From: Deltaproteobacteria bacterium
GTDB taxonomy: Bacteria > Desulfobacterota > Binatia > UTPRO1
Reading direction: 5' to 3'
DNA: 37,291 bases
NCBI GenBank assembly: GCA_020848745.1
Contig: JADLHM010000078.1
Location: 1-37,291, forward strand
Part shown: positions 27,582-37,291 of the stretch, one piece after another
How positions within the stretch are numbered: the first letter of the stretch is position 1
How the letters are laid out: each line of letters begins with the position of its first letter
Notes under the pieces: generated by a model
Databases searched by the model: none
The model's input: only the letters and a program-made list of their open reading frames with translations
Told to the model about the DNA's origin: nothing
Position numbers and translations under genes: made by a program

Positions 27582-28988
27582 ATGTCCGACGTCCTGCACA
27601 CGGCCTCCGTCACGACGCTCGCGGACGCGATCCGGGCCGGCCGGCTCCGGGCCCGCGACGTGCTGGAACACCACCTCGAGCGCGTCGCGCGTCTCGATCC
27701 GCCGCTCGGCGCGTTCGTGTTCCTCGACGCCGCCGGCGCGCGCACCGCCGCCGACATCGTGGACGCGCGCGTGCGGCGCGGCGACGATCCCGGCCCGCTC
27801 GCGGGCGTTCCCTTCGGCGTGAAGGAGCTGGAGGACGTCGCCGGCTGGCCGCATCCGCGCGGCGCCCGCGTCTTCGCCGACGCGATCGCGGCCACGACGT
27901 CGACGCACGTGCGCCGCCTCCGCACCGCCGGTGCGATACCGCTCGGTCTCACCGCCTCGCCCGAGATGGGCGCCGCGTCCTTCACCGCCTCCCTGCTGCA
28001 TGGCGTCTGCCGCAATCCCTGGAACCCGGCGCGCACGCCGGGCGGATCGAGCGGCGGCTCGGCCGCGGCCGTCGCGGCCGGCCTCGTGCCCCTCGCGACC
28101 GGCTCCGATTCCGGCGGCTCGCTCCGCATCCCGGCATCCTTCACCGGGCTCGTCGGCTTCAAGGGCACCTACGGCCGCGTGCCGCGCGGCCCGCGCTACG
28201 TCGGCTTCCCGAACGTGCGGAACTACGGCGTCCTCACCCGGAGCGTCGCCGACACCGCGCGCGTCCTCGACTGCGTCGTCGGGGCCGACGAGCACGACCC
28301 GCTGTCGCTGCCGCATCCGGGGCACTCGTACGAGCGGGCGGTCACCGAGCTGGATCTGCACGGAGCGCGCGTCGCCTGGAGCGCCGACCTCGGCTTCGGC
28401 GCGTGCGATCCCGAGGTGGCCCGCGTCGTGCGCGCCGCCGCCGACGGCCTCGTCGCCGCGACCGGCATGGTCGAGGTCGACGCGCGCGTCGACCTCGCGG
28501 ATCCCGAGGAGGCCTGGCGGGTCCTCATGGCGCCCGACCTGCTCGAGCTCTACGCGCCCTTCCTTCCGGAACGCGCCGCCGACGTGAACCCGGCGCTGCA
28601 GTTCCTCTTCGCGATGGCCGCCGGGCTCGGCATGCGCGACCTCGCGCGCGCCGCGCTCGTCCGCGACGCGCTCGTGCAGTCGCTCGCCAATCTCTTCGAG
28701 CGGGTCGATCTCGTGCTCCTGCCGACGACGCCGATCCCGGCGTTCGCCGCGGAGGGTCCGCCGCCAGCCACGATCGCCGGACGCGCGCTGAGTCCGCTCG
28801 CGACGGTCGCGCAGACCTATGTCTTCAACCTGAGCGGTCACCCCGCCGTGTCCGTACCCGCCGGCACGGTCGACGGCACCCCGATCGGCCTCCAGATCGT
28901 CGGGCGCCGCCACGACGATCTCCGCGTGCTCGCGGCGGCGCGCGCGCTCGAGCGGGAACGGCCGTGGCCGCTCCTCGCGCCCGAATGA
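27582..28988 (+). CDS. Amidase (amidase signature family)
   Basis: 468 residues. The Ser-cisSer-Lys triad is intact: K81 in GVKELEDVAG, cis-Ser S156 in PGGSSGGS and nucleophile S180 in GSDSGGSLRIPA, with the 24-residue spacing between serines seen in the family. No GatB or GatC gene adjoins it and the substrate loops differ from GatA, so it is probably a catabolic amidase rather than the tRNA amidotransferase subunit. No signal peptide is present. GGGAG lies shortly before the ATG. The substrate cannot be predicted. Confidence 0.92.
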   Translation: MSDVLHTASVTTLADAIRAGRLRARDVLEHHLERVARLDPPLGAFVFLDAAGARTAADIVDARVRRGDDPGPLAGVPFGVKELEDVAGWPHPRGARVFADAIAATTSTHVRRLRTAGAIPLGLTASPEMGAASFTASLLHGVCRNPWNPARTPGGSSGGSAAAVAAGLVPLATGSDSGGSLRIPASFTGLVGFKGTYGRVPRGPRYVGFPNVRNYGVLTRSVADTARVLDCVVGADEHDPLSLPHPGHSYERAVTELDLHGARVAWSADLGFGACDPEVARVVRAAADGLVAATGMVEVDARVDLADPEEAWRVLMAPDLLELYAPFLPERAADVNPALQFLFAMAAGLGMRDLARAALVRDALVQSLANLFERVDLVLLPTTPIPAFAAEGPPPATIAGRALSPLATVAQTYVFNLSGHPAVSVPAGTVDGTPIGLQIVGRRHDDLRVLAAARALERERPWPLLAPE

Positions 28989-29090
28989 CGGTCGCACGCG
29001 ACGTCGCGGCGCGCCGGCCATGCGCGATCGCGTGCGCCACGCCGGCCGCGCGCCATTGACGTCCGCGCACGCGCCGCTACGATCGCGGCG

Positions 29091-31088
29091 ATGCTGCACC
29101 TCGGTCGGGCGCTCCTGCTCCTCATCGTCATCGCGCGCGCCACGCGTGCGGACGGCGCCGAGCTGCAGGTCGTCGCCGTGAGCCCCGCGCCCAACGCCAT
29201 CGCGCCCGCGACGACGCTCGTCCGCATCGACTTCGACCGCCCGCTCGACCCGACGACCGTCTCCGCCGATACGGTGCGCGTCTTCGGCCGCGGCACCGGC
29301 ACCGCCGGTGGCACGCGCGTCCTCTCGAACGGCGACCAGACCCTCACCTTCACCCCGACCGCGCCGTTCTCCGCGGGCGAGATCGTGCTCGTGAACCTGT
29401 CGCGCGCGCTCGCCGGCGCCGACGGGTCGCCGCTCCGCGCCGCCGGGTGGGCCTTCGAGATCACGATCGCGACCGCGCCGACCACGCGCAGCTTCACGCG
29501 CATCGACACGATCTCGAACCGCTCGAGCCCGGGCGTCGCGACCCGCATCTACGGCGCCCAGGCGACCGACCTGAACCACGACGGCTTCCTCGACCTCGCG
29601 ACCGTGAACGAAGTGAGCGCCGACGTCCGCGTCGCGCTGAATCGCGGCGACGGCACCGGCGCGTTCCACGCGTTCCTCGCGCCCGCGCCGATCGCGCTCG
29701 AATCGAGCCCGAACGAGCCGGCAGACTTCGACAACGACGGCCACACCGACGGCTGCTTCTCCGCCGCGAGCGGGCGGGCGGTGACCGTCCTGATGGGCAA
29801 GGGCGACGGCACCTACGGGACGCCGCGCACGATCGACCTCGGCGGGCAACCGCACGGCATCGCGGTCCTCGACGTCGACGGCGACGCCGACCTCGACGTC
29901 GTCGTAGCCGACCGTCAGCGCAGCATGCTCGCGCTCCTCGTGAACGACGGCGCCGGGACGTTCGCCGCGCCCGCGTTCTTCGACGGCGCCGTCGACGGCG
30001 AGTACGGCCTCGCGGCCGGCGACATGAACGCCGACGGCATCGTCGACCTGGTCGTCGGCGGCCGCGACAGCCGGAGCATCGCGACGCTGCTCGGCAACGG
30101 CGACGGCACGTTCACCGCCGCGACGCCGCAGGACTCCGGCGGCAACACCTGGGTCGTCACGCTCGGCGACGTGAACGGCGACGGCCACCTCGACGCCACG
30201 ACCGCGAACTCCAGCAGCAACAACGGCGCCGTCCTCCTCGGCGACGGCGCCGGCGGCTTCGCGGCGCCGGTCGTCACGACGACCGGCGCGCACACCCCGT
30301 CGACAGACCTCGGCGATCTCGACGGCGACGGCGACCTCGACTGGGTGCTCTCGGTCTTCGGCGGCGGCTTCTGGCGCGTGTACCTGAACGACGGTCACGG
30401 CGCCTTCACGTTCGAGCGCCAGATCGACGCCCCGAGCAATCCCTCGTGCGCGGTCCTCTTCGACTTCGACGACGACGGCGACCTCGACCTGGCCCTCACG
30501 GACGAGGTCGCCGACGTGATCCTCCTCGAGCGGAACGGCGGCAGCGTCAAGCCGACCGCCACGCCGCAGTGCGCCGCGACGCCGCGTCCGTGCCGCACGC
30601 CGGCGGTCGCCGGCAAGGCCGCCCTCGCCATCAGCGACGCGGCGACCGCCCAACGCGACGCCTTCGCCTGGTCGTGGACGAAGGGTTCCGCCACGACGGT
30701 CGCCGACTTCGGCGACCCCGCGACCACCGACGCGTTCGACCTCTGCGTCTACGACGCCGGCGCCCTCGTCATGAGCGCCACCGCCCCGCCCGCCGGCCTG
30801 TGCCCCAAGCGCCCCTGCTGGAAACCCCGCAAGAACGGCCTGGACTACGCCGATCGCGCCCGCACCCCGAACGGCCTCCAGTCCATCACCCTGCGAGCCG
30901 GAGGGACCGGCAAAGCGCGTATCGCCGTACGCGCGAAGGGCGAGCACCTGACGCTCCCCGCGCCGAGCGGCCTCGCCGGTCCGCTCGAGGTCCAACTCCA
31001 GCGCCCGACCGGCCCCTGCTTCGGCGCCCGCTACCCCACCCCCTTCAAGAAGCAGTCCCCCAAGAAGCTGACCGCCAAGTCCGGCTGA
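29091..31088 (+). CDS. Secreted FG-GAP/VCBS repeat protein with Ig-like N-terminus and uncharacterised C-terminal domain
   Basis: 665 residues. A signal peptide covers about 1-20 (ATRA-DG). Residues about 25-120 look like a bacterial Ig-like (Big_5) domain (NAIAPATTLVRIDFDRPLD). Residues about 150-480 contain seven FG-GAP/VCBS-type repeats, each with a calcium-binding loop: DLNHDGFLD, DFDNDGHTD, DVDGDADLD, DMNADGIVD, DVNGDGHLD, DLDGDGDLD and DFDDDGDLD, enough for a seven-bladed propeller. The last 155 residues form a separate domain (CPKRPCWKP, YADRARTPNGLQSITLRAG, KARIAVRAKG) I cannot name. It is probably cell-surface or released and may bind ligands or surfaces. No good ribosome site is seen before the ATG. 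Confidence 0.88.
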   Translation: MLHLGRALLLLIVIARATRADGAELQVVAVSPAPNAIAPATTLVRIDFDRPLDPTTVSADTVRVFGRGTGTAGGTRVLSNGDQTLTFTPTAPFSAGEIVLVNLSRALAGADGSPLRAAGWAFEITIATAPTTRSFTRIDTISNRSSPGVATRIYGAQATDLNHDGFLDLATVNEVSADVRVALNRGDGTGAFHAFLAPAPIALESSPNEPADFDNDGHTDGCFSAASGRAVTVLMGKGDGTYGTPRTIDLGGQPHGIAVLDVDGDADLDVVVADRQRSMLALLVNDGAGTFAAPAFFDGAVDGEYGLAAGDMNADGIVDLVVGGRDSRSIATLLGNGDGTFTAATPQDSGGNTWVVTLGDVNGDGHLDATTANSSSNNGAVLLGDGAGGFAAPVVTTTGAHTPSTDLGDLDGDGDLDWVLSVFGGGFWRVYLNDGHGAFTFERQIDAPSNPSCAVLFDFDDDGDLDLALTDEVADVILLERNGGSVKPTATPQCAATPRPCRTPAVAGKAALAISDAATAQRDAFAWSWTKGSATTVADFGDPATTDAFDLCVYDAGALVMSATAPPAGLCPKRPCWKPRKNGLDYADRARTPNGLQSITLRAGGTGKARIAVRAKGEHLTLPAPSGLAGPLEVQLQRPTGPCFGARYPTPFKKQSPKKLTAKSG

Positions 31089-31121
31089 CGCGGCCCCTCT
31101 TCAGCGGCCGGCGGTAGCCGC

Positions 31122-32618
31122 CTATTCCACGACTTCGAAGTCGTTGCCGGTGATGCGCAAGAACTCGTCGTGCATCAGCTCATCGTCCCAGCGCGGATCT
31201 GGCGCCCCGGTGACGAACCAGTCGCTGCCGTTGTCCGCGAGGATGAGCCCGTACGTCTGCATCGCGCGCACGATCACCGCGGCGGGCGCGGCGAACGTGT
31301 CGGGATCGACGCTCGCCTTGAGGCGGACGCGCAACCCGAGCGGCGGCCGCTCGTCGCCGCCCGGTCCCGACGTCGCGTCGTGCGATGCCGGATAGACGTA
31401 GCCCCGGGTGCCGCGGACGGTGAAGCGGAGCGCGTGCGTGATGACCCCGGCGTCGAAGACCTCGTCGGCGCGCACCAGCCCCGGGAGGATCGCGAGCCCC
31501 GCCGCATCGGCGGACGTCCAGCCTTCGGGACGCCGCGCGTTGCTCCCGAGGTCGAAGATCGCGCCCGAGCCGCCGCGCCATGCGCCGCCCATGAACTGCG
31601 CCGCGTAGATCTCGAAGAGGAAATTGTGGTCGCGGTCGACGAGGATGAGGTGGCGGTCTCCGCTCGAGCCGCCGCCGGCGACGCCGCCCTCCACGTACCC
31701 CGGTACGTACTGCGCGACCTCCGGGATCGGGTAGCCGAGCGGGAGGCCGGGCGCGCCGTCATCGCTCTCGTCGCCGTAGAGGAAAGAGACGGGCACCTTC
31801 GGCTGCGCACCCTCGACCTCGACGTATGGAATGCCGAAGGTCGTGCCGAAATCGGCGTGCAGAGGCTTCGTGCGCCCGATGTAGTCGATGGTCGCGTCGG
31901 AGCCGGCGGGCACGGTCGCCGTCGACACGTCGCGGTTCCACCAGTTGTCGGAGGGGAACACCTGGAGGCCGGCGAGGCTGCCGTTCAGCGTCACGATGCC
32001 GTCGATCGTGGCCGGCACGTCGGCCAAGACGGCGGCGACGAGCGGATCGACGCGACCCGTCTCGATGGCCGCCGCATCGCCCTCGGTGGCGCAGGCGTAG
32101 CGTTCGTCGGCATCCGCGAAGGCGTTCGTGAACTTGTTCTCGAGCTTCGCGAGGCACGCGGGATCGACCGCCGCGGCCTTCCCGGCCGCACGCGCGTGAC
32201 ACGCGAGCTTGGCGCTCGCCTTCATCCCCGTCGCTCCGAGCTTCACCGCCGCGCAGCGCCGCCCGTCTACGCTGCCGTCGGCGGCGAGCGCCGCCGCGAC
32301 CGCCGCGACGAAGTCGTCGAGCGCGGCCGTGACGGTCGCCGCGTCGTCACCGCTCGCGCAGCCGCCCTTGGCCTCGGCGCGCGCGAACACGGCGGCGATC
32401 TTGGCCCGGATCTTCGCGAGGCACGCCGCGTCGACGACCGCCCCCCGCTTCACGGCGTGCGCATGACACCGGAGGAGCCCGGCGCCGGCCGCGCCCGCCG
32501 CCTTGAGCTTCGCCGCCGCGCAGCGCCGCGCCGGTGTCGCCGCCGCCCCCACTGCGCCCGCGAGCAGCACCGTCGCCACGAGCGCCCAGGCGCCGCTTCG
32601 CACGATCGTCCGCATCAT
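31122..32618 (-). CDS. Secreted protein: two Cys-rich repeats plus a conserved uncharacterised domain
   Basis: 498 residues from ATG 32618 (ATG 32615 is adjacent). A signal peptide covers about 1-27. Residues 28-200 contain two Lys/Ala-rich helical repeats with identical cysteine spacing: C33, C51, C66, C87 and C122, C140, C155, C176. Residues about 212-498 form a domain I remember as common in secreted actinobacterial and acidobacterial proteins (DNWWNRDV, KPLHADFGT, GIPYVEVEG, DRHLILVDRDHN, RRPEGWTSADAAGLAI, HALRFTV, LILADNGSDWF). It has no established function. An IS5-type remnant ends 14 bp upstream of the start, so the original promoter may have been displaced. Confidence 0.8.
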   Translation of the reverse strand: MMRTIVRSGAWALVATVLLAGAVGAAATPARRCAAAKLKAAGAAGAGLLRCHAHAVKRGAVVDAACLAKIRAKIAAVFARAEAKGGCASGDDAATVTAALDDFVAAVAAALAADGSVDGRRCAAVKLGATGMKASAKLACHARAAGKAAAVDPACLAKLENKFTNAFADADERYACATEGDAAAIETGRVDPLVAAVLADVPATIDGIVTLNGSLAGLQVFPSDNWWNRDVSTATVPAGSDATIDYIGRTKPLHADFGTTFGIPYVEVEGAQPKVPVSFLYGDESDDGAPGLPLGYPIPEVAQYVPGYVEGGVAGGGSSGDRHLILVDRDHNFLFEIYAAQFMGGAWRGGSGAIFDLGSNARRPEGWTSADAAGLAILPGLVRADEVFDAGVITHALRFTVRGTRGYVYPASHDATSGPGGDERPPLGLRVRLKASVDPDTFAAPAAVIVRAMQTYGLILADNGSDWFVTGAPDPRWDDELMHDEFLRITGNDFEVVE

Positions 32619-32631
32619 CGCGAGTAAGAGC

Positions 32632-32853
32632 CTATCCCACAAGGTGGCGCCAGATAAGCCGCGTCGCCGCGAAGTGGACGAGCGCGAGCTAGTTCTGCGA
32701 TTTCTTCTCCCGGCAGATGAGCAGCCTGCGGCAGCGGTTGAACCACGACGTGGTGCGTTCGACGACCCAGCGGCGGGCGCGCGTCCCTCGGCGACAGGCC
32801 CGACGCTCCTCACCGCGCCGCCGAGGTCGTCCTGGCAGTTCGCTAGAGTCAGT
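32632..32853 (-). pseudogene. IS5-type transposase, decayed C-terminal remnant
   Basis: Read on the minus strand, one frame gives RRWVVERTTSWFNRCRRLLI, then CREKKSQN, a TAG (32689-32691), and LALVHFAATRLIWRHLVG ending at TAG 32632-32634. This is the C-terminal block of IS5/IS4-type transposases (WVVERT...W.NR.RRL...E), in which the position of the internal TAG normally holds Tyr (NYLALLHFA). The N-terminal catalytic parts are absent. GATAGGCTCTT just past the end resembles an IS terminus. It fills most of the 324-bp gap between two secreted-protein genes. Confidence 0.75.
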
Positions 32854-32942
32854 CCAACAGGCCAGACGTCCTCAGCCAACCCGAGAGCCGGCTCGTAGAG
32901 ACGCGGGCCCGCTCCGCTCCGGTTTTCGACGCGTCGGGAGGC

Positions 32943-35003
32943 CTACCAGTTTGCCGTCGCATGCGTGAGTGGGGTCGCGACCCACGCCTGGCGCGTCGCC
33001 GCCGCAGTCGTCGTGAGTCCGGGGGCGTCGTAGTACAGGACCTGCCGACCGCGCAGGAAATTCGTGCCGCCCGTAGACGGGTCCGTGCTCGGGATGAACT
33101 GATTGATCCAAGGCCCGCTCGCGCCGTACGCGTACGCGTCACCGGTGCACTGCTGATCCGATGGAGTGGGGCTCGCGTCGTCGAGATAGTAGGAGCTCGG
33201 GGTGAGGCCGGGGACGTCGGTTTCGACCACGTTCACGATCGCGACCGATCCTTGGGCGCCGGTCGCGAGCTCCCAACTGAGCGTGCCTGACGACATGGCG
33301 TCGGCGACACCGTCTATCGTCGCACCGGCGGGGTTGATGACATTGGCGTAGGTCATGCCGGCGGCCGCGGAGCTGAAGTCGCGGAAGGTCATGATGCCCG
33401 AAATCGCATGGACGCGCAGGAACGCGGTGGCCTCTTCGCGGCCGCGGTAGAAAATCTGCTCTTGCTGTGATCGCGGTCCGCTGTTCGCGCCGATGAACGA
33501 ACGGATTCCACGTACGGGCCCGCTCTTGTTCGCTACGAAGGCCCCCTCGCTCGACTCGGAGTCGCCGGTGAGTCCGTCGAACGTGTCCTCGCTACGGCCG
33601 CAAAAAGACGGCGCGAACAGGATCTTGTTGCGATCCAGAATGTCGACGCCCGCCGCACCGCCACTGAAGACGCGGAGCTCGTCCTGCAGCCATCGATCAT
33701 GGAACCCGCGCGCGTACTCCGTCGTGCACACTCGGCTGGCTTCGGGGTTCGGACCGTCCGCGATCTGGTAGGTCGACTTGTAGTTCCCCGACAGGAGGAC
33801 GAAGTCGTAGCGGACGTACTGTTGTCCGGCGCTCGGATCGAGCGATCCGTCCTGCCGGAAGAGATAGACGTAACCGGCCTCGGCGTTCAGGGGATCCGTG
33901 ATCGTCACGCGCACGCCGGAGCTCGCGATCACTCCGGTCGGTTCGCTGAACGCCGGAGGCTGGGTACCCGCATCGGCGGCCATGAACGCAATTTCGTCGT
34001 CGGAATCGAGCGTCGTGTCCACGTCGGCGCCCGTAAACGTCTGGGCGTCGGTGTAGTCGAGCACCATGAAACCGCCGCCGGATCCCCAGGGAAAGGACAT
34101 GTTGTTGTAGACGTCGTTGAAATTGATCACGGCGCGCTCGTCGACCTGCACCGGAATCTGCACCCACGCGCCCTCCCAGCGGAACGCGACGAGCTCGCCA
34201 GGCGCGATCCCGACGAGACGCGGAGCGACGTCGGCGCCGGTCAGCACGACCGGATCGGCCGGGCGATGCAACGGCGCCGGTCCGGCAGCGAGGGTCGGAG
34301 GCGGTAACGGGCAGGACGGTGGCGGCGGAGGACATCCTGGATTGCCCGGGTCGAGCGTGCAGGTCGCGGCCTCGACGAACGCATCGCCGGCCATTGCGAG
34401 TGCAGACGCCTGGCTGCCGGAGGAGGTGCAATCCGCTCTGGCCGCGGCCTTGTCGAGGCACCCGTTGCTCCCGTTGGAGAGCTTGGTGACGAGCTTGGCG
34501 ACGCAATCGCCGGAGATGAATCCGCCTTTGCCGGCGGCTTTGCCGTAGCAGCCGAGCACGCCCCCGATATACTTCCCGACGCACTTGAGCTTCGCCGCAT
34601 CGCACGCGCTCCCGGTCGGGTTGGCGCCGACCGTCGTGCCGACCGCAGAGAGAGTCGCATCCATGTCTCCCGCAATCGTTGCGGTGTCGTCGAAGGTGAG
34701 ACACGGCGTGACCGAAGCCGGTGCGTATTTCGTTTCGAGCTTCTCGAGGACACCTTTCGCCGGGAGCGCGCCACCGTCGAACTTGTCGCTCGCCTTTCCG
34801 CGACATGTGGCGAGCGCGGTCGCGTCGGGTTTTCCGGCGTCCTTGCTCGCGCAGCCGGCGAGGGTCGCCGTGGTCTTACCCGTCCCCTTGAGCTTCCCGG
34901 CGAGGCATTTGTTGACCGTCAGCGTGGTGACCGATGCGTAGGCAACCGTCGCGGTTGCGAGTACGGCCAAGACGAGGAGGACGAAGGCAACACGAGGGCG
35001 CAT
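32943..35003 (-). CDS. Secreted protein with Cys-rich repeats, Pro-rich hinge and unknown large domain
   Basis: 686 residues. The start ATG (35001-35003) has GGAG close upstream. A signal peptide covers about 1-23 (VAYA-S). Two Cys-rich helical repeats follow: C33, C51, C67, C101 and C134, C152, C167, C182/C192, the same type as in the neighbouring protein. A Pro-rich linker (about 218-242, PPPPPSCPLPPP) leads to a beta-rich domain of about 440 residues (PRLVGIAPGELVAF, VQIPVQVDER, DSDDEIAFMAADAG, DEIAFM-type acidic loops) that I cannot place in a family. Its C-terminus reads TPLTHATANW. It is likely cell-surface or released; function unknown. Confidence 0.78.
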   Translation of the reverse strand: MRPRVAFVLLVLAVLATATVAYASVTTLTVNKCLAGKLKGTGKTTATLAGCASKDAGKPDATALATCRGKASDKFDGGALPAKGVLEKLETKYAPASVTPCLTFDDTATIAGDMDATLSAVGTTVGANPTGSACDAAKLKCVGKYIGGVLGCYGKAAGKGGFISGDCVAKLVTKLSNGSNGCLDKAAARADCTSSGSQASALAMAGDAFVEAATCTLDPGNPGCPPPPPSCPLPPPTLAAGPAPLHRPADPVVLTGADVAPRLVGIAPGELVAFRWEGAWVQIPVQVDERAVINFNDVYNNMSFPWGSGGGFMVLDYTDAQTFTGADVDTTLDSDDEIAFMAADAGTQPPAFSEPTGVIASSGVRVTITDPLNAEAGYVYLFRQDGSLDPSAGQQYVRYDFVLLSGNYKSTYQIADGPNPEASRVCTTEYARGFHDRWLQDELRVFSGGAAGVDILDRNKILFAPSFCGRSEDTFDGLTGDSESSEGAFVANKSGPVRGIRSFIGANSGPRSQQEQIFYRGREEATAFLRVHAISGIMTFRDFSSAAAGMTYANVINPAGATIDGVADAMSSGTLSWELATGAQGSVAIVNVVETDVPGLTPSSYYLDDASPTPSDQQCTGDAYAYGASGPWINQFIPSTDPSTGGTNFLRGRQVLYYDAPGLTTTAAATRQAWVATPLTHATANW

Positions 35004-35139
35004 GTGATCTCCGAACACGTCGGTGAGAATCCTTGGAACGATCAGGTGGAACGACTCGAGACGGGACGGCAGTCGTGAAGACACGATAGCAATTTGGCAC
35101 AGAACTATCATCCCCCAATCGGGTGAGGCCATTCGGCAA

Positions 35140-35655
35140 AACGCCGGGGATGGCCCGACATTGCGGCGGATGCTGCGGCACGCGTGCCAGCCCGACGACG
35201 ACCCACGCCCCGCGTACCCGCCCGCGCTGCTGCACATCCGCCGGGCCTCCTTGCGCCGCTCGTACTGCGTGGCGGTGGTCTGCCTTGCAGGCGCCGACCC
35301 AACAGGCGGCGACGACGAGCCCGCCGCCCTCGTGCTGGTGAGCCACCCCGATGGCGACGTCGGCACCTTCACCGCCGTCATTCGCGAGCTCTCCGGGCTC
35401 ACCCCCACCGAGGGCCATGCGGCGACCATGCTGTTGCAAGGCACGGGTGTCGAGGTGATCGCGACCCGCTCCGCAATGTCGCTCAACACCGTGCGGACCC
35501 ACCTCGAGCGCACGTTCTCCAGGGTCGAGGTCGGGAGCCAGTGCGACCTCGTGCGCATGCTGCTGGCGGGCCGGCGCGGATCGTCCTGCGCGCCGTCGCG
35601 ACCGATCGAGACTCCGGCTTGTCGCCGTAGATATCGGCGTATAATATGCGGGCTC
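35140..35655 (+). pseudogene. LuxR-type regulator, N-terminally reduced, without its own stop codon
   Basis: The frame includes ATG 35170 and, upstream, GTG 35023 close to the divergent gene. A LuxR helix-turn-helix lies at 35398-35568: LTPTEGHAATMLLQ, then SLNTVRTHLERTF and QCDLVRMLL. Before it is the short stretch often seen ahead of the HTH in PAS-type LuxR proteins (AALVLVSHPDGD). The usual 200-residue sensory part is absent. After LVRMLLAGRRG no stop codon occurs, and the frame runs straight into the DUF4143 ATPase. I read it as a truncated regulator; a functional short LuxR protein, or a real fusion, is possible. The promoter of the divergent gene at 35003 also lies in 35004-35140. Confidence 0.6.
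35619..35645 (+). promoter_or_regulatory. Putative promoter before the right-hand DUF4143 ATPase
   Basis: TTGTCG (35619-35624) and a perfect TATAAT (35640-35645) are 15 bp apart, a short spacer. The -10 box ends 10 bp before the ATG at 35656, so the message would be almost leaderless. CGCCG/CGGCG arms flank a GATATC core between the boxes. TCGGCGTA followed by AT-rich sequence and TGC is shared with the region before the ATPase at 7457. Confidence 0.5.
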
Positions 35656-36870
35656 ATGCAATATCCGCGCTTCCTCGAGAAACCCCTGCGGTCGCGAACC
35701 TCTCGGGGCAAAGCACGGCTCGTCCTCGGCGCGCGTCAAACCGGGAAATCGACGATCTTCGAACGCCTGCGCGGCGCGAGCGATCTGCTGATCGACCTGC
35801 AGGAGCGAGGGGAGCGCGCGCGTCTGGCGCGCGATCCGGCCGCATTCACCCGCGCGCTGCTGCCCGCCCGCCGCCATCGTCACGTCTTCGTCGACGAGGT
35901 CCAACGCGTACCGGAGCTCCTCGACGAGATCCAGCACCTGCTCGATCGTCATCCGGGAAAGTTCACCTTCACGCTGACCGGCAGCTCGGTGCGCCGCTTG
36001 CGCCGACGCGACGCTAACTTGCTCCCGGGCCGTACGCACCGCTTCCATCTGGCACCGGTCTGCGCGTGGGAAATCGTCGGCCGCGACGACACCGTTGTAG
36101 CCGCTGCGCCTACCGCGCTCGGCGCCGAGCGATTTCCGGAGCGCGCGCTCAGCGACCATCTCGTGCTCGGGAGCATGCCGGCCGCGTTCATCGAAGGGAA
36201 GCGCTACCGGGCAACCTTGCAAACCTACGCCGAGGCGTATCTCGAGGAGGAGGTCCTGCGCGAAATGGCAGCGCGCAATCTCGGCGCATACAGTCGCTTC
36301 CTCGAGCTCGCCGCCGTCGAGTCCGGCAAGCCGATCAACCTCACCAAGATCTCGCAGGAAAGCGACCTCGCCCTCTCGACCCTGCGCGGATTCTACGGTG
36401 TCCTGGAAGACACGCTGCTCGGCTTCACGGTTCGCCCGTTCGGAGGCTCGCCGCGCGCACGCCTATTGAAGACGCCACGCTTCTTCTTTTTCGACGTCGG
36501 CGTGCGGAACGCCGTGGCACGACTGCCTCTCGACGACGGCATCCTCGCGACGCAAGCGGGCCAGCTCTTCGAGCACTGGGTCGCCTGCGAACTCATGGCG
36601 CGGATCGGCTATCTCGGCCCGGGGTGGCGCCTCGGCTACTGGCGTACGGTCGACGGCGCCGAGATCGATTTCATCCTCGAAACTCCGCGCGAAACCATCC
36701 CGATCGAGGTGAAATACACCGCGAATCCACGGCCGGCAGACGCCCGCGAGGTCGAGCGGTTCGTGCAACGGCATCCCAAGCAGAGCCGACGCGGCCTCCT
36801 CGTCTGCCGGGTCCGGCGACCGGAGCAGTTGACGGAGCACGTGCGCGCGATTCCGTGGGATACGTTGTAG
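35656..36870 (+). CDS. ATP-binding protein, AAA_14/DUF4143 family (intact)
   Basis: 404 residues from ATG 35656, chosen because a TATAAT box lies just upstream and the family begins at about this point; the frame is open further 5' through the LuxR remnant. Walker A GARQTGKST (25-33), Walker B FVDEVQ (78-83), LTGSSVRRLRR (107-117), a winged-helix-like segment (about 225-255), then the DUF4143 half with EID (336-338) and EVK (351-353), a nuclease-like pattern. All motifs are intact. Function of the family is not established. It lies between a LuxR remnant and the right-hand element end, a setting typical of a mobile or frequently rearranged gene. Confidence 0.9.
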   Translation: MQYPRFLEKPLRSRTSRGKARLVLGARQTGKSTIFERLRGASDLLIDLQERGERARLARDPAAFTRALLPARRHRHVFVDEVQRVPELLDEIQHLLDRHPGKFTFTLTGSSVRRLRRRDANLLPGRTHRFHLAPVCAWEIVGRDDTVVAAAPTALGAERFPERALSDHLVLGSMPAAFIEGKRYRATLQTYAEAYLEEEVLREMAARNLGAYSRFLELAAVESGKPINLTKISQESDLALSTLRGFYGVLEDTLLGFTVRPFGGSPRARLLKTPRFFFFDVGVRNAVARLPLDDGILATQAGQLFEHWVACELMARIGYLGPGWRLGYWRTVDGAEIDFILETPRETIPIEVKYTANPRPADAREVERFVQRHPKQSRRGLLVCRVRRPEQLTEHVRAIPWDTL

Positions 36871-36877
36871 CCCCAGC

Positions 36878-37141
36878 GTGGTCCGATGCCCCTCGGGCTC
36901 ACGCTCAGTCCGCTTTGTCGACGAAACTGCTCGCCAACAGACGACGGCCGAGCGACGATCCCCGACCCGCAAGCGGCGCACGCTCTTCCGCTTCGAGACC
37001 ATTCCCACGCTCCGCTACCTCTGCTTCGGACGGGCGGGCGTGCTGCTCTACCCCAACGGCTACGCCACCCTTGACGTCGGCCCAGCTCCGGCCGTCGCCG
37101 AGCGCTTCAAGCGGCTCGATCGGCTCCTGAAAGCGGCCTAG
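36878..37141 (+). CDS. Small orphan reading frame, probably the 3' remnant of a gene
   Basis: 87 residues if started at GTG 36878, but only the last 55 (from about RRTLFRFETIPTLRYLCFG to RFKRLDRLLKAA) have convincing C/G-ending codons. The upstream part looks random. This suggests the 3' end of a larger gene whose 5' part was lost when the ATPase gene or the end element arrived. I do not recognise the protein. The repeated element begins 24 bp after its stop. Confidence 0.4.
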   Translation: MVRCPSGSRSVRFVDETARQQTTAERRSPTRKRRTLFRFETIPTLRYLCFGRAGVLLYPNGYATLDVGPAPAVAERFKRLDRLLKAA

Positions 37142-37165
37142 GTTTTGGCTCATCAGGGTTAATAG

Positions 37166-37291
37166 CTGGAGAGTGCCGGGTTCTCGGGTGTGATCAGCGG
37201 CGCTTGATCGGCTTCGCTGCTTCGGTGCGTTGCGCGAGTTGGAGGTCGGAGCGTTCGGTGGCGAGGTCGATCCAGCGATCGACGAGGCGGC
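37166..37291 (-). mobile_element. Right copy of the repeated IS-like element end
   Basis: Bases 37166-37289 are the exact reverse complement of 1-124. Both copies have their 3' ends pointing into the window. The flanking bases differ, so they are independent insertions of one element or contig ends in different copies of it. Confidence 0.75.
37194..37291 (-). CDS. C-terminal tail of the element's protein (putative transposase), 5' partial
   Basis: The frame ends at TGA (complement of 37194-37196) and encodes the same AAKPIKRR-ending tail as bases 1-96. The remainder lies beyond the window. Family not recognised. Confidence 0.4.
   Translation of the reverse strand, partial: RLVDRWIDLATERSDLQLAQRTEAAKPIKRR

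Follow-up and report, generated by a model that had tools for sequence, protein, structure and literature searches.

Two neighboring genes of the window, i.e. the whole stretch of 37,291 nucleotides analyzed here, encode exported proteins that carry a cysteine-rich repeat of about 75 residues in two copies behind the signal peptide. Judged from its sequence relatives, this repeat is a mobile terminal module of exported proteins, referred to below as the helical module. Sequence or model data show its homology and mobility, the export signal, the number of units and their location at a protein end, the predicted helical fold, and the pairing of cysteines by covariation. The window stems from a 4.9-Mb draft genome (G000) assigned to UTPRO1, the name of an order within Binatota (PMC8262859). 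Binatota are uncultured and much of their exported protein set is unnamed. A single profile of the helical module would link dozens of such unnamed exported proteins in about one third of the genomes of the class that were searched.

Both genes, coding for P0002 (498 aa) and P0003 (686 aa), are encoded on the minus strand. The strand had gone unstated in the original prediction, whose repeat coordinates and cysteine spacings were correct throughout. The two genes are composed of the following parts.

31122..32618, minus strand: P0002 gene, coding for a signal peptide, two helical cysteine units and an unnamed C-terminal domain
32538..32618, minus strand: P0002 signal peptide, about residues 1-27, MMRTIVRSGAWALVATVLLAGAVGAAA, assigned from its sequence and its position relative to the unit
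32283..32522, minus strand: P0002 unit A, residues 33-112, with Cys 33/51/66/87
32019..32255, minus strand: P0002 unit B, residues 122-200, with Cys 122/140/155/176; both units are covered by an AlphaFold2 model
31125..32003, minus strand: P0002 C-terminal domain, without Pfam match
32943..35003, minus strand: P0003 gene, coding for a signal peptide, two helical cysteine units, a Cys/Pro-rich linker and an unnamed C-terminal domain
34932..35003, minus strand: P0003 signal peptide, about residues 1-24, assigned from its sequence and its position relative to the unit
34632..34907, minus strand: P0003 unit A, residues 33-124, with Cys 33/51/67/101 and an insertion in helix 2
34356..34604, minus strand: P0003 unit B, residues 134-216, with Cys 134/152/167/192 and the extra pair C141/C182; covered by an AlphaFold2 model
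34269..34355, minus strand: P0003 Cys/Pro-rich linker, assigned from its sequence
32946..34268, minus strand: P0003 C-terminal domain, without Pfam match; its homologues carry other ends

Cysteines are spaced 17-14-20 in both units of P0002. In P0003 the spacing is 17-15-33 in unit A and 17-14-24 in unit B, with C141 and C182 in addition. The repeat had been placed directly after the signal peptide of both proteins and ahead of differing domains. This was borne out, as both modules begin shortly behind a signal peptide and the C-terminal domains of P0002 and P0003 are unrelated (BLASTP E 0.68).

Similarity beyond the cysteine spacing had been set beforehand as a test of the repeat. Profiles were built without the units of the tested protein and, for P0003, also without those of its close paralogues, and 2000 shuffles with every cysteine held in place served as control. 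Under these conditions the units scored 68.7 and 69.1 bits (P0002) and 42.4 and 57.1 bits (P0003). In each test all 2000 shuffles stayed below the real score, and the four units of the window were far above them, with z values of 18-23. Even a profile of P0002-type units alone recognized the P0003 units with 23.4 and 33.4 bits (z 10 and 13). The cysteine-fixed shuffles thus ruled out a composition artefact as the source of the likeness.

No known family was found to cover the repeat. An existing Pfam family had been named as a possible refutation, and searches with the whole of P0002 and P0003 returned no family from Pfam, NCBIfam or PHROGs. When 38 diverse units were compared with Pfam and NCBIfam, only isolated single-member matches with E 0.013 or worse were obtained. 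Two module profiles had no match among PDB chain sequences, plasmid sequences contained no module match, Rfam gave no match at window 28000-37291, and no paper on the helical module was found in the literature. Structural comparison gave best matches of E 0.54 (double module) and 5.8 (single unit) with Foldseek and of Z 8.5 and 7.5, respectively, with VIA-align, all at background level for helical bundles; this does not prove a new fold. Lipoprotein anchoring was rejected on the basis of the signal regions, since a lipobox-like string occurs in 3 of 101, those of P0002 and P0003 not being among them.

For the family as a whole, 101 distinct proteins were gathered from 144 loci plus the window, 145 sequences in total. 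Two units were detected in 73 of these proteins, one in 28 and three in none, and in almost all of them the first unit starts shortly behind the signal peptide. When the ancestry of units A and B was compared, the nearest neighbor of a unit had the same position in 92 of 144 cases, and units within one protein shared 39% identity vs. 31% for A-B pairs between proteins. The partners of the module are highly varied and include PAF-AH/PETase-like (esterase-like) hydrolases, CAP, pectinacetylesterase, Lcl_C, glucose/sorbosone dehydrogenase(-like) and DUF4215 domains, as well as, by weak matches, His-phosphatase and DUF1554. Linkers rich in Thr, Pro and Ser follow the module in 36 of the 101 proteins. 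Furthermore, proteins consisting of the module only exist, e.g. L009 and L110.

The cargo domains also occur without the module. The C-terminal domain of P0002 is present in 25 of 145 genomes of the class, and the helical module precedes it only in the window genome and in a second genome of the same genus (G431). Its best matches outside the genus are 49-57% identical, with some homologues more distant, and homologues elsewhere lie behind a bare signal peptide, Thr/Pro-rich linkers or other domains. The region at 31125-32003 (minus strand) represents a conserved unnamed exported domain behind several differing N-terminal segments. Likewise, a homologue of the P0003 C-terminal domain in another genome (G092) has a different N-terminus. 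Since the C-terminal domains of the window are found elsewhere without the module, the module is mobile. Together with the lack of a family match and the varied partners in 101 proteins, this agrees with the original description as a mobile exported module without a name.

The helical module was found in 47 of 148 genomes of the class, often in many copies each, and about 15 proteins of the window genome carry it. Among 395 sampled genomes of the phylum, it was nearly restricted to the class of the window. Outside this class it occurred in a single genus belonging to a different class (G132 and G580), besides a single weak match broken by stop codons. In several proteins of G132 (L056, L061 and L214) the module is C-terminal, behind other domains. 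It is therefore not bound to one protein end. In L214, Asp-rich repeats with a CPxDP pattern are located ahead of the C-terminal helical module.

Covariation of the cysteines was counted in 170 aligned units, cysteine numbers being alignment positions. C1 and C55 hardly vary at all. The pair C19/C34 is complete in 155 units and wholly missing from 15, the pair C15/C38 is complete in 11 and wholly missing from 159, and one partner alone was found in neither case. C8 occurs together with a cysteine near position 45 in 29 units and both are lacking in 140, the lone exception being a truncated copy. The spacing between the first and second cysteine is 17 in 153 of 155 units, and that between the third and fourth is mostly 20. 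The position sums of all four pairs lie between 53 and 56, which describes one antiparallel hairpin; the family thus seems to exchange equivalent disulfides along this one pair of helices. Nested disulfides between the first and fourth (C1-C4) and the second and third cysteine (C2-C3), with optional C8-C45 and C15-C38 bonds, on an antiparallel hairpin are supported by this covariation. A further cysteine, C13, is present in both units of 9 out of 9 two-unit proteins of the class that have it, which suggests a C13-C13 bond between the two units of one protein. The formal significance of the covariation is weakened by the shared ancestry of the units. A tree-based test counted 1-2 independent paired changes on well-supported branches and 3, 5 and 7 changes when every branch was included, each of them in the expected direction. 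VKOR, a disulfide-forming oxidase, is encoded in the genome, and the module cysteines are probably oxidized in the exported protein. A variant with the C15-C38 pair in place of C19-C34 heads Lcl_C proteins (L047); a divergent copy similar to it was found at L102:2370-3623 (plus strand). These joint gains and losses of cysteines amount to a disulfide map on a helical hairpin, drawn from sequence alone, which can be checked by mass spectrometry.

Metal or heme binding, suggested initially and inviting in view of at least four cysteines per unit, is hardly credible as the function of the module. Cysteines appear and disappear two at a time, as fits a helical hairpin. A CXXCH heme-attachment motif is absent from the repeat according to cysteine spacing and column counts, and no histidine is conserved, position 20 after the second cysteine being His in only 21% of units. 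Metal or heme binding is therefore unsupported, and on the basis of cysteine pairing and the absent CXXCH a metal, heme or redox function was rejected.

A structure prediction, also proposed at the outset, supports a helical fold well. AlphaFold2 confidently predicted six helices for the double module of P0002 (five sequences; pLDDT 89.4, pTM 0.87), which may be taken as two bundles of three helices each. For one P0003 unit on its own (ten sequences; pLDDT 84.3), the predicted order of helices is similar, helix 2 being broken at the insert.

Mitochondrial CHCH (twin CX9C) proteins are helical hairpins with two disulfides. The helical module differs from them in cysteine spacing, by which twin CX9C motifs are absent, and in bacterial export as opposed to mitochondrial import, and it has no sequence match among PDB chains. 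One CHCH protein, CHCHD4, has been described in PMC12114033. In plant alpha-hairpinins, two antiparallel helices form a hairpin in which the Cys1-Cys4 and Cys2-Cys3 disulfides are nested (PMC7191063), a topology also proposed for the helical module. However, their motif is C-X3-C ... C-X3-C, which the module spacing does not match (17 in 153 of 155 units). The module has the form C-X17-C ... C-X20-C with a third helix, and tandem units head large proteins. The resemblance is one of plan and not of kinship. The shared disulfide plan (PMC7191063), the lysine-rich helix faces and the existence of module-only proteins might point to an independent secreted hairpin peptide, e.g. an antimicrobial or inhibitory peptide like a large alpha-hairpinin. 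We consider this highly improbable, because large domains are attached to the majority of copies and the helices, besides being accompanied by a third one, are much longer than in alpha-hairpinins. DUF4215 (PF13948), which directly follows the helical module in several members, also consists of Cys-rich repeats of exported proteins, but it is a separate Pfam family covering other residues and does not match the helical module.

Dockerins, carbohydrate-binding modules and SLH domains are non-catalytic terminal modules found many times per genome on varied exported enzymes, and dockerins consist of duplicated units. The helical module is likewise terminal, repeated within the genome and joined to varied exported cargo. 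In contrast to these known modules, with which it shares no sequence or fold match, it is built from disulfide-braced helices. We give about an even chance to the view that it serves exported proteins for attachment or retention, as a non-catalytic module laddered by disulfides. Once the protein is exported and its signal peptide removed, each unit, usually one of two in tandem, would fold into an antiparallel helical hairpin plus a third helix. The hairpin would be held by the nested disulfides C1-C4 and C2-C3, in some members with the cross-braces C8-C45 and C15-C38 and possibly with the C13-C13 disulfide between units. From its place at one protein end, often via Thr/Pro/Ser-rich linkers to unrelated enzymes or domains, the module would keep its cargo domain attached to the cell envelope or matrix by its lysine-bearing helix faces, much as carbohydrate-binding modules, dockerins or SLH domains act by means of other folds. 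These faces may bind an anionic envelope or matrix component, the purpose being cargo retention. If the module is a retention tag, its ligand would reveal how Binatota keep enzymes at the surface.

Several observations count for attachment. Unrelated cargo is found across the 101 proteins, linkers are present, cargo domains occur without the module, and the module can be located at either end. The helical model, the paired cysteines and VKOR fit as well, and Lys or Arg recurs at positions 5, 7, 11, 22, 37, 41, 48 and 52. In orthologue pairs all module cysteines are retained and dN/dS is 0.43 and 0.37 for the module vs. 0.14 and 0.17 for the cargo domains, indicating purifying but relaxed selection on the module. 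Counted against attachment are a one-sidedness of lysines that is significant for helix 2 (p 0.0001) but not for helix 1 (p 0.09), a mean net charge of only +3 per unit, the few independent cysteine changes and the looser sequence of the module. Because the module sequence is looser than that of the cargo domain, it would also fit an inert, protease-resistant spacer or stabilizing cap that lifts or protects the cargo without specific binding. Relaxed sequence constraint combined with strict cysteines, the linkers and the very varied cargo speak for such a spacer, which we nevertheless regard as unlikely, since the lysine positions recur and module-only proteins such as L009 and L110 leave nothing to space. 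We attach little probability to a pro-region or intramolecular chaperone that assists export or folding and is afterwards cut off. The N-terminal location directly behind the signal peptide in the class and the faster evolution of the module than of the cargo would agree with it, but in another class the module is C-terminal, module-only proteins exist, and homologues of the cargo domains fold without it.

A second unnamed module was found next to the P0002 gene, where an FG-GAP protein (29091-31088, plus strand) carries it at its C-terminus (window 30549-31085, plus strand). It comprises about 165 residues, contains cysteines and has invariant W/G/C columns. A Pfam search gave no match for it, and the second and the helical module are unrelated to each other. 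There are 31 matches in the window genome. The second module occurs in 51 of 145 genomes of the class and in 45 of the 47 genomes having the helical module, a co-occurrence with p 2e-28 in Fisher's test that is confounded by family-level ancestry. G311, the sole representative of family f97 to possess the helical module, has the second module too. We regard this genome co-occurrence as a lead and not as a conclusion. Homologues of one cargo domain carry either the helical or the second module, and the two were never found in one reading frame, as judged from 101 frames with their stop inside the locus. It is conceivable, and we rate it as distinctly unlikely, that the two modules are alternative tags addressing proteins within a single undescribed system of surface display or sorting. 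On the other side of the P0003 gene, at window 35023-36867 (plus strand), one open frame, either a genuine fusion or a pair of genes sharing the frame, matches a LuxR-type helix-turn-helix (GerE), followed by AAA_14 and DUF4143.
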